Shown here one piece after another: positions 23,532-26,711 of a stretch of DNA of 32,788 bases. The stretch comes from Bacillota bacterium. Its GTDB lineage: Bacteria > Bacillota > UBA4882 > UBA10575. Where the stretch lies: the NCBI GenBank assembly GCA_012735135.1, contig JAAYHY010000102.1, positions 1 to 32,788 on the forward strand. Reading direction: 5' to 3'. Every line of letters begins with the position of its first letter. The stretch's first letter is position 1. Both the position numbers and the translations under genes were made by a program. The notes beneath the pieces were generated by a model. It ran no database searches. It had not been told where the DNA came from and was given only the letters and a program-made list of their open reading frames with translations.

Positions 23532-24755
23532 TTAACAACTACTTCCGGCCAGATAACCGGTGGAAAAGGCAATCTGCAAGTTATAACCCCCGGTGTAAGC
23601 ATTCACATCGCTTACTTCCCCGGCAGAAAACAGCCCTTTCACCAATTTTGATTCCATTGTGGCCGGGTTGATTTCCTTAACGGTAACCCCGCCGGCGGGG
23701 ACGTTCGCCTCCGCCAGCGGCCGCAAACCGTTAATCTCTACTTCCAAACCTTTCACCACCGCCACCATTCGTTGCCGTTCAGCTTTGGTGATTTGGTTCA
23801 CGGGTTTCTCCGGCGGAATCCCCACCAGCTTAACCACCACCGGAATCAGGGCCCGCGGTAAAAGATCCCCCAAGGCATTATGGAAAACTTTCCGTATATA
23901 TTTCGCAAAATCCCTTTGCAGGCGTAAATCCAACTGTTCGGGCGTGAGGGCGGGTTTCAAATCGATCACCAACCGGTAAAGCCGGCCTTCTTCCAAATGA
24001 ACACTGGCCGAAAGGATGATCGGTCCGGAAACCCCGAAATGGGTAAAGAGCATCTCCCCAAAGTCACTGTAGATCTGCTTTCCTTCCTTGGACCAGATTT
24101 TAATCGCCACGTTTTTCAGGGTAAGGCCCTGTACTTCCCGGATCCAGGCCGTCGGGGACTCCAACGGAACTAAGGCCGGTTTTAACGGAGTAATCCTATG
24201 GCCCAGGGCGGCGGCAAACCGGTAGCCATCTCCGGTGGAACCGGTGAGGGGATAGGACCGGCCGCCGGTGGCCAAAATTACTTGACGAGCCGGGATAAAC
24301 TCACCATTCTTCAGTTTAACACCGGTCACCTGTCCCTCTGTTACCAGGATCGCCGTTACTTCCCCCTGCATAACTTCAACATGATAATGGGCCAGAAACC
24401 GCTCCAAGGCAGCGACCACATCGGCGGAACGGTCGGAGACCGGAAAAACCCGTCCGCCCCGTTCCACTTTGGTGGGGAGGCCCCATTCTTCAAAAAAGGC
24501 GATCAGATCCCGGTTGCCAAAGCGGTGGAAAGCATGGTATAAAAACTTTCCGTTGACCGGAATATTGGCGATCAATTCATCCAAATCGGCGATGTTGGTC
24601 AAATTACACCGCCCCTTACCGGTAATTAACAGCTTCCGGCCCAACCGCCGGTTCTTCTCCACCAACGTTACACTTCGCCCACGGCGCGCAGCGGTACCGG
24701 CGGCCATCATCCCGGCCGGCCCGCCACCGATCACCACAACCTTTTCCGTAGCCAA
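23532..24755 (-). CDS. HI0933/BaiN-family flavoprotein
   Basis: FAD-dependent oxidoreductase of 407 residues. An N-terminal dinucleotide-binding motif (VVVIGGGPAGMMAAGTAARRGRSVTLVEKNRRLGRKLLITGKGRCNLTN) is characteristic of HI0933-like proteins, with VILATGGRSYPLTGSTGDGYRFAAALGH in the middle and GLFSAGEVSDVNAYTGGYNLQIAFSTGYLAG at the C-terminus. Some relatives reduce bile-acid intermediates (BaiN), and others remain uncharacterised; the substrate here is unknown. The start is TTG 24755, with GGAGG 8 nt upstream. It is preceded by a 549-bp intergenic region with a promoter, structured RNA and terminator on the same strand. Confidence 0.88.
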   Translation of the reverse strand: MATEKVVVIGGGPAGMMAAGTAARRGRSVTLVEKNRRLGRKLLITGKGRCNLTNIADLDELIANIPVNGKFLYHAFHRFGNRDLIAFFEEWGLPTKVERGGRVFPVSDRSADVVAALERFLAHYHVEVMQGEVTAILVTEGQVTGVKLKNGEFIPARQVILATGGRSYPLTGSTGDGYRFAAALGHRITPLKPALVPLESPTAWIREVQGLTLKNVAIKIWSKEGKQIYSDFGEMLFTHFGVSGPIILSASVHLEEGRLYRLVIDLKPALTPEQLDLRLQRDFAKYIRKVFHNALGDLLPRALIPVVVKLVGIPPEKPVNQITKAERQRMVAVVKGLEVEINGLRPLAEANVPAGGVTVKEINPATMESKLVKGLFSAGEVSDVNAYTGGYNLQIAFSTGYLAGSSC

Positions 24756-24820: not shown

Positions 24821-24916
24821 GTTGCAGCTTAGCTGAAATTTTCCAAAACTGTTTTCCATCTTCTTCACGCCAACCGATAAATGAATGGTTGCAGCTAGCT
24901 GAAACTTTTCCAAAAC
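24821..24916. repeat. Duplicated palindromic element
   Basis: Two imperfect direct copies of about 29 bp, GTTGCAGCT(T)AGCTGAAA(C)TTTTCCAAAAC, at 24821-24849 and 24888-24916. Each contains a near-palindrome, TTGCAGCT-n-AGCTGAAA. They lie between the RNA terminator and the HI0933 gene and may be regulator sites. The remainder of 24756-24980 shows no credible gene. Confidence 0.6.
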
Positions 24917-24980: not shown

Positions 24981-25008
24981 AAAAAAAAAAGCGCCACCCG
25001 ATGGTGGC
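24981..25008 (-). terminator. Strong terminator of the structured RNA
   Basis: On the minus strand GCCACC, loop ATCG, GGTGGC, then GC and ten T (24990-24981). An upstream copy of GGTGGC (25050-25045) can pair with the 5' arm (25008-25003), so it could act as an antiterminator. Confidence 0.88.
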
Positions 25009-25166
25009 AAATGAACAACAACCTTTAAGAGTTTTCCGAGAATAGCCACCTACCCCGACTGCCGGCGTGGTCAGAGGCAGGGCGAGCTTCACCCCTCCGC
25101 CGGCGCCTGGCATCAGAATGATGCTCTACAAACCCTTTGCGAACACGTATCCACAAAGGAGTTTGT
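24981..25166 (-). ncRNA. Putative structured RNA, about 186 nt
   Basis: A transcript from the promoter at 25173-25201 would begin near 25166 and stop at the ten-T terminator. It contains three successive stems. ACAAAC-U-CCTTTG pairs with CAAAGG-GTTTGT (25166-25128). GCATCA pairs with TGATGC (25124-25110). A long GC-rich hairpin joins GCCGGCG and CGCCGGC (25104-25061), with inner GAGG/CCTC and GGGTG/CGCCC pairs. A GGTGGC copy then offers an antiterminator alternative. It does not match any RNA class I can recall with confidence. It may be a free-standing small RNA or a leader for the HI0933 gene, whose start lies 226 nt beyond the terminator. No plausible protein is encoded here. Confidence 0.55.
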
Positions 25167-25172
25167 AATTAA

Positions 25173-25201
25173 ATGATAACAGATTCAACTGTCTGCTGCA
25201 A
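25173..25201 (-). promoter_or_regulatory. Promoter of the structured RNA
   Basis: On the minus strand TTGCAG (25201-25196), 17-bp spacer, TATCAT (25178-25173). The predicted start coincides with the first base of the first hairpin. Between here and mtaD (25202-25304) nothing else is recognised. Confidence 0.6.
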
Positions 25202-25304: not shown

Positions 25305-26603
25305 TTAACGCCGGAATAAATCCCAGGCGGTCCGGGCGGCTGCGGAACGGATCTCGCTTTCATCCCACTTTACCATTTTTCTTTCTTTAACCAACCATTG
25401 ACCATTGACCATAACGTCGGAGACATCGCTCCCCCGCGCCGCGTAAACCATGAGGGAAACCGGGTTGAAGCAAGGAGTCAGGTGGCTTTGGTCAAGATCG
25501 ACCATGATCAAATCGGCTTTCTTCCCCGGTTCCAAACTGCCAATCTGGTCACCCAACCCGAGGGCGCGCGCCCCATTGATCGTGGCCATCCGCAAGGCCG
25601 TTTCCGCCGGTATGGCCGTGGGATCCTGGTTGGTAACTTTATGAAGGAGAGAAGCCGTCCTTAACTCGGTGAACATATCCAGCCGGTTATTACTGGCCGC
25701 CCCGTCGGTGCCCAGACTAACGAGAACGCCTGCCTTTTGGAGCTGGAGGACGGGGGCAATGCCGCTGGCTAGTTTAAGGTTACTGGAGGGGTTATGGGCC
25801 ACCGCCACCTTCTGTTTAGCCAGGAAAGAGATTTCTCCCTCATCCAGCCAGACGCCATGGGCCAACAACACCGGCCGGGAGAAGACCCCTTGGTCCACCA
25901 GATAAGCAATGGGCCGTTTCCCGTAGTTTTTGCCAATCTCCTCCAGCTCATCCCTGGTTTCCGCAACGTGGATATGCAATGGCAGCTGGTAATGGCGGGC
26001 CGTCGTGACAATCTGCCGCATAGCCGATGGTGTTAAGGTGTAGGGAGCATGGGGCCCTAACATAGCCGTAATGCGTCCCTCCGCTTTCCCCTTCCATCGT
26101 TTCGCCTGTTCAATTGCTTCTTCAAGTTTGGTCTCAACCTCCGCATCGGAACCGAGCAAGCCCCGGGATAAAACCGCGCGGATCCCTCCTTCGTCAACAG
26201 CGCGTGCCACTTCATCCATGAAAAAATACTGATCGGCAAAGGTGGTGGTCCCCGAGCGGAGCATCTCGCTGATGGCCAGGCGCGTCCCGTGATACACATC
26301 CTCCGCCGTTAACTTGGCCTCCCGGGGCCATATTTTCTCCTTTAACCAGGCATACAGCGGATAATCATCCCCCAGGCTACGCAAGAGCACCATCGCCGCG
26401 TGGGTATGCGTATTAACCAGGCCCGGCATCACCAGCTTCGTCCGGGCCTCAAGCACTTCGGTCGCCGCGTCGGCCACCGTCTCTTGCCAGGGACCTACCG
26501 CCGCTATCTTATCATCCACTATTTTTATGTAGGCATCGTGGATCGGTTCTTCTCCCTCCGCCATCGTCAGGAGCCACTCGCAGTGTATAACCACCGTTCC
26601 CAT
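25305..26603 (-). CDS. mtaD: 5-methylthioadenosine/S-adenosylhomocysteine deaminase
   Basis: Amidohydrolase of 432 residues that removes ammonia from the adenine ring of methylthioadenosine, S-adenosylhomocysteine and often 5'-deoxyadenosine. Metal ligands and active-site motifs: PGLVNTHTH (His66, His68), GPHAPYTLTP, LHIHVAET (His212, with Glu215), LLAHGVWLDEGE, and SLGTDGAASNN (Asp300). The sequence RSLGDDYPLYAWLKEKIWPREAKLT is typical of this subgroup. ATG 26603 is preferred to 26612 because GGAAAGGAG is 9 nt upstream of it and would overlap the other. It lies 108 bp downstream of the AHCY-homologue gene on the same strand, which supports sequential action. Confidence 0.92.
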   Translation of the reverse strand: MGTVVIHCEWLLTMAEGEEPIHDAYIKIVDDKIAAVGPWQETVADAATEVLEARTKLVMPGLVNTHTHAAMVLLRSLGDDYPLYAWLKEKIWPREAKLTAEDVYHGTRLAISEMLRSGTTTFADQYFFMDEVARAVDEGGIRAVLSRGLLGSDAEVETKLEEAIEQAKRWKGKAEGRITAMLGPHAPYTLTPSAMRQIVTTARHYQLPLHIHVAETRDELEEIGKNYGKRPIAYLVDQGVFSRPVLLAHGVWLDEGEISFLAKQKVAVAHNPSSNLKLASGIAPVLQLQKAGVLVSLGTDGAASNNRLDMFTELRTASLLHKVTNQDPTAIPAETALRMATINGARALGLGDQIGSLEPGKKADLIMVDLDQSHLTPCFNPVSLMVYAARGSDVSDVMVNGQWLVKERKMVKWDESEIRSAAARTAWDLFRR

Positions 26604-26711
26604 TCGGGTCATCTCCTTTCCTACCGCTACTTGGAAAATAAAGCTCTCGCTCGTCTAAATAATTGTCTTGACCAGTACTTACCAACCGGGGCAGGATGGT
26701 GTTTGCCGTTA

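Follow-up and report, generated by a model that had tools for sequence, protein, structure and literature searches.

The window analysed here is the whole stretch of 32,788 nucleotides. On its minus strand, from 25201 to 24981, the sequence contains an RNA gene. Its promoter is followed by a hairpin at the 5' end of the RNA, a core rich in GC, a linker rich in A and U, and finally the terminator. The gene is flanked by a TRZ/ATZ-type deaminase gene at 25305-26612 and by an HI0933/TIGR00275 flavoprotein gene at 23532-24755. The initial annotation had listed a promoter, stems, and a T10 terminator without naming a strand; we found all of these elements, on the minus strand. The features are as follows.

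25196..25201, minus strand: -35 element TTGCAG; TTGCA or TTGCG with a 17-nt spacer in most f1 homologues
25173..25178, minus strand: -10 element TATCAT; TAnnnT retained in homologues
25128..25166, minus strand: P1, 5'-terminal hairpin at the predicted transcription start, found by folding; a hairpin is present here in every homologue
25045..25128, minus strand: conserved core matched by covariance models (99.7 bits with R2, 95.1 bits with R3)
25123..25126, minus strand: domain I closing helix, 5' strand GAGC, pairing with GCUC
25112..25122, minus strand: P2 (AUCA UUC UGAU), a local hairpin in f1 copies
25099..25111, minus strand: P3, hairpin with loop I (A-GGCGCC)
25102..25107, minus strand: loop I palindrome GGCGCC, proposed homodimer contact; it switches in relatives
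25084..25087, minus strand: domain I closing helix, 3' strand GCUC, supported by covariation
25049..25081, minus strand: stem II hairpin, CCUGCCUC-U-GAC / GUC-GGGGUAGG
25060..25069, minus strand: loop II, CACGCCGGCA, which holds the palindrome GCCGGC
25010..25048, minus strand: A/U-rich linker, single-stranded in the alignment; AAAGGUUGU retained in f1 type A only
24981..25009, minus strand: intrinsic terminator GCCACC-N4-GGGUGGC followed by T10, found by folding; a CCACC/GGUGG-type terminator in nearly all homologues

The spacer between the -35 and -10 elements is 17 nt, and the two elements match the consensus at 8 of 12 positions. The earlier description of the promoter as near-consensus is thus correct for the -10 element only, and a generic promoter scan of the locus reported no promoter. 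The pattern is still conserved, as TTGCA-N17-TAnnnT is retained in most homologues of the same family (f1). P1 begins at about +7 from the -10 element and contains 17 bp with one bulge. Its folding energy (-20.1 kcal/mol, z = -6.3) was reached by 0 of 200 shuffles. The sequence of P1 varies among homologues, and the hairpin form is present in every copy. The terminator hairpin (25009-24992, followed by T10) was equalled by 1 of 200 shuffles, as was the fold of the full 188-nt RNA (z = -3.8).

Using blastn in relatives, we found the entire gene in genomes of the same family, together with a second copy, which has diverged but has the core TGACCACGCCGGCAGTC in common. The covariance models R2 and R3 were used to search 29 genomes of the class, and the RNA was found in 25 of them. 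The G021 match, included in the 25, has a weak score (E 0.06), yet shows the full anatomy. A pattern search added G020, also with the full anatomy, which gives a total of 26 of the 29 genomes; four of the five families of the class contain the RNA. The RNA was not found in G017, G023, and G028; the G028 contig stops about 100 bases past sigK, the site of the f5 copies. Named records with the RNA are Bacillota metagenome assemblies, one of which is called Hydrogenispora sp. When 398 genomes of the phylum were searched with the covariance models, nothing convincing was found in the approximately 370 genomes outside the class. The phylum-level candidates G063, G386, G409, and G022:C27 are weak matches with no promoter or terminator around them and were judged to be due to chance. 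Genome-wide pattern matches in Rhodococcus, Myxococcales, Mycobacterium, and others were likewise assigned to chance, with scores of at most 23.4 bits versus at least 39.5 bits for full-length true members in the same search. Searches of phages, plasmids, and viral contigs gave no copy.

The RNA often occurs as two paralogues per genome. In all f1 genera, a second paralogue with the same anatomy lies elsewhere in the genome, and only one copy was found in G005 and G015. The homologues have the 5' hairpin and the terminator, and those in f1 also have a recognisable promoter.

The secondary structure was examined in an alignment of 38 sequences that covers three helices with 18 pairs. In the helices, 95.1% of the cells were paired (81.1% in shuffles), 115 cells had changes on both sides (39 expected from shuffles), and 14 of the 18 pairs had changed on both sides; model-built alignments are fitted to their models, so that such counts lean towards structure, but the unfitted MAFFT alignment A1 gave the same answer. 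With slid partners as a control, pairing was at most 43%. The domain I closing helix is paired in 100% of the 38 sequences and is also seen as GAGU/ACUC. Stem II is 94% paired, with changes on both sides in 10 of 11 pairs, and swaps GAC/GUC for GGC/GCC. The pairs of P3 covary, and all four pairs of P2 had changed on both sides.

Lineages do not share one arrangement in the middle of domain I, because P2 covaries in f1 and f5 extends the closing helix. In f5 and in L016/L018, an extended stem takes the place of P2, and f5 copies such as L059 lengthen the closing helix instead (GAGCAUUA/UAAUGCUC). A long irregular stem for domain I (R1) was the weaker model, with 89.8% paired versus 96.5% for P2 and P3 on the same alignment; an extended stem does fit f5, where it may be the right one. 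The single-sequence minimum free energy (MFE) structure of the window copy favours a fold other than the conserved one, and the compound GC-rich stem of the initial annotation belongs to that structure only. In its place, comparison gives two adjacent hairpins.

The hexamer of loop I was GGCGCC in 25 of the 38 sequences, GGGCCC in 9, GACGUC in 2, GGUGCC in 1, and GACGCC in 1. L101, which is outside the alignment, also carries GACGUC. The hexamer is self-complementary in 37 of the 38 sequences; the only exception is the GACGCC of L060. In this loop, 99.1% of the cells were self-complementary (reached in 0 of 500 shuffles), and the covariation score was 0.327 versus 0.086 in shuffles (again 0 of 500). 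As a test of functional likeness to homo-oligomeric ncRNAs of the OLE/ROOL/GOLLD type, we looked for palindrome-to-palindrome covariation in a self-complementary loop, and loop I shows it, with L060 as the exception. The loop of L060 (G018:C417), GGUGACGCC, is longer and, with an A at its centre, comes close to self-complementarity. Only 9 of the 135 double mutants of GGCGCC are still strict palindromes, and 3 of its 18 single mutants are self-complementary when wobble pairs are allowed. Under even mutation, we estimate the chance of three independent palindrome switches to be about 7e-4, with the number of events taken from lineage and not from a tree. The switches may represent only about three evolutionary events, as the nine GGGCCC copies are probably the result of one.

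The palindrome GCCGGC of loop II is invariant (38 of 38 sequences), which is consistent with self-pairing but uninformative. A kissing interaction between loops I and II of one molecule and the GCCGGC/GCCGGC pairing of the MFE structure were both rejected, as each had zero covariation. Adjacent bases cannot pair within one chain; therefore, the natural reading of a self-complementary loop I is an intermolecular, symmetric kissing loop.

The surroundings of the RNA differ among lineages. The type A copy in f1 is located after the deaminase gene and, in several genera, ahead of the HI0933-type gene; nrdR is next in the window. In g1, the type B copy lies between a PHP-domain gene and a gene that, from its sequence, we take to be ychF. 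The second paralogue of the window's own genome (G000:C36:3971-4051; L024, L049) is found between ychF and a PHP-domain gene, and its loop I is GGGCCC, not GGCGCC. All eight f5 copies (L059, L096-L101, and L108) share the strand of the sporulation sigma factor gene sigK and are located about 0.26-0.83 kb downstream of it; the next gene, where read, is nrdR or one for IMP dehydrogenase or an AMP-binding enzyme. As sigK-family genes are present in 29 of 29 genomes of the class, a link of the RNA with sporulation is possible from this neighbourhood.

Several other elements were observed near the copies. The minus strand of the window between 25305 and 30801 contains a cluster with genes for the TRZ/ATZ (MTA/SAH-type) deaminase and adenosylhomocysteinase. 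Further genes of the cluster read like those for MTR-1-P isomerase and MTA phosphorylase, and the cluster would serve the salvage of S-adenosylhomocysteine and methylthioadenosine, the last two genes being assigned by sequence only. Between the RNA terminator and the HI0933-type gene, there are two copies of a 29-nt direct repeat (24821-24849 and 24888-24916; GTTGCAGCT(T)AGCTGAAA..TTTCCAAAAC; 76% identical). The second copy holds the palindromic GCAGCTAGCTG, and the pair is possibly an operator of the HI0933-type gene. At least four f5 genomes have a 6S RNA gene on the same contig as this RNA, at a distance of 7-9 kb. In the f5 genome with L099, a partial T-box leader (1742-1859) is located just downstream of the RNA; it scored 53.8 bits, below the gathering score, and its 3' end is cut off.

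No known class had been matched in the initial annotation, and our search of Rfam gave the same result. At the cut-off, the whole window contained no family match except a tRNA, and at lax thresholds the window and the most diverse homologues gave only chance-level matches, such as RT-5 at 18.7 bits. Neither the locus nor the diverse homologues belong by sequence to OLE, ROOL, or GOLLD, for which there was no Rfam match, and we found no description of this RNA in the literature that we searched. 6S-1 and 6S-2 are the two 6S paralogues of Bacillus. If the RNA were a divergent 6S, raiA/ModT, OLE, T-box, or other known RNA, this would account for a size range and a stand-alone nature like those of 6S and raiA, and the paired copies recall the two Bacillus paralogues. 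We nevertheless consider this explanation very unlikely. 6S RNA (RF00013), which the initial annotation wished to see excluded, was found by covariance model search as a separate gene in 27 of the 29 genomes of the class, including the window's own (G000:C49:24371-24554, 99 bits), and its model did not match the RNA locus. A 6S RNA pairs its 5' end with its 3' end over a long range, with a bubble in the centre; this arrangement is absent here, and the 5' end folds as the local hairpin P1 in homologues. The exclusion of raiA is less firm: its model (RF03072) matched neither the window nor the homologous loci at gathering or lax thresholds, and its absence from all 29 class genomes is weaker evidence, as no control genome matched.

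The initial annotation had also raised the possibility of a regulatory leader for the HI0933 gene. Several f1 genera do have the RNA upstream of an HI0933-type gene in the same orientation, and a cis-acting leader or attenuator of this flavoprotein gene, with GGTGGC as the antiterminator, would explain that arrangement. A copy of GGTGGC does exist at 25050-25045 of the window; however, the homologues have GGTGAT, GGTGTC, GGTATT, GGTTTA, GGAGTA, and others at this position. The alignment thus rules out the antiterminator switch and the switch-like alternative fold, and a riboswitch or attenuator was rejected, as the relatives have no conserved antiterminator pairing and no constant downstream gene. 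The downstream gene varies between genera, between paralogues, and between families: in g3, the next open frame is on the opposite strand, and the PHP-domain gene follows type B as the genes listed above follow the f5 copies. Almost every copy has an intact terminator. A leader of the HI0933-type gene is therefore extremely improbable, and this is a stand-alone RNA gene, not a leader or switch. The homologues, the covariation, and the lack of an Rfam match bear out the suggestion of a structured, uncharacterised RNA that may be a stand-alone small RNA. We conclude that the RNA almost certainly represents a real, previously uncatalogued ncRNA family of the class of anaerobic bacteria of the spore-former type that comprises the relatives of Hydrogenispora.

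We infer that the gene is transcribed from its own sigma-A-type promoter to give a structured ncRNA of about 186 nt that ends at its own terminator. By comparison of the homologues, the RNA folds into the 5' hairpin, domain I, and domain II, followed by the unstructured linker and the terminator. Domain I consists of the closing helix GAGC/GCUC and an apical hairpin with a 7-nt loop (A and the palindrome), and domain II of a hairpin with the loop CACGCCGGCA. As the neighbours change while the promoter, the terminator, and the core persist, action of the RNA in trans is presumed. The self-complementary hexamer of loop I most likely joins two molecules in a kissing loop; GCCGGC of loop II is possibly a second contact, and the dimer, or its protein complex, would be the working form.

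A new class-wide ncRNA family that self-pairs through loop I is our best reading, which we hold with moderate confidence, and homodimerisation through this loop is, from the comparative sequence data, the best and a reasonably probable mechanism. The same new trans-acting RNA might instead be monomeric, with loops I and II as sites for a protein or for mRNA pairing (as in an antisense sRNA) and with incidental palindromes. A monomer would have the same anatomy and distribution, the invariant loop II is what a protein or RNA contact would show, and AAAGGUUGU is kept unpaired in the linker of f1 type A. GC-rich palindromic hexamers could also have another cause, such as protein recognition. Loop I, however, varies and yet remains self-complementary in all but one of the aligned sequences, which a sequence-specific binder would not need; we regard a monomer as somewhat unlikely. 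What is conserved is folded loops, not an unpaired seed; for this reason, an antisense regulator seems to us less likely than an RNA that is structural, protein-associated, or oligomeric. A further form of the self-pairing reading, which we put forward as doubtful, is that this class-wide ncRNA of less than 200 nt forms a closed dimer, or a higher oligomer of RNA alone, via both palindromic loops (GGCGCC-type loop I and GCCGGC loop II). The GGCGCC and GGGCCC paralogues of some genera would then sort into separate homodimers, as the match between their loop I sequences has been lost.

To our knowledge, few RNA families that are nearly universal across a bacterial class are still undescribed. 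Class-wide breadth and duplication usually indicate that an RNA has an important housekeeping role; 6S and raiA are examples. Among natural RNAs, homo-oligomers are, as far as we know, rare and so far mostly large. If self-pairing is true, an RNA of about 186 nt whose loop switches palindromes would be a small and experimentally easy homo-oligomer, for which evolution supplies a clean compensatory test. The RNA gene can also be annotated in Hydrogenispora-type genomes from anaerobic digesters, as it is outside present Rfam coverage.

In the retroviral dimer initiation site and other kissing-loop dimers, a hairpin loop carries a 6-nt GC-rich palindrome. The retroviral site is an element of genomic RNA, whereas here the two palindromic loops belong to a small bacterial ncRNA; the comparison is functional only. 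6S RNA (RF00013) resembles our RNA in size, in its stand-alone gene, and in often having two paralogues, but it pairs both ends into one long bulged hairpin, whereas the RNA here has a local 5' hairpin, and the two genes coexist. raiA/ModT is likewise a stand-alone RNA of Bacillota of about 200 nt with a sigma-A-type promoter and its own terminator (RF03072, PMC11706538); unlike the RNA here, its consensus has two pseudoknots and eight helices, and it is a monomer by cryo-EM (PMC12286853). OLE, ROOL, and GOLLD are, like the present RNA, stand-alone bacterial ncRNAs, but they are several hundred nt long versus about 186 nt, and their oligomers have been shown, whereas ours is predicted (PMC12286853). 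The authors of that cryo-EM study used the same palindrome argument for the bridges of OLE and GOLLD, symmetric kissing loops that they saw by cryo-EM: the self-complementary loop L9.3 of OLE switches among GGCC, GAUC, and AGCU, which is comparative evidence for symmetric kissing loops (PMC12286853). A self-complementary loop that switches from palindrome to palindrome is the feature that the RNA described here shares with OLE and GOLLD.
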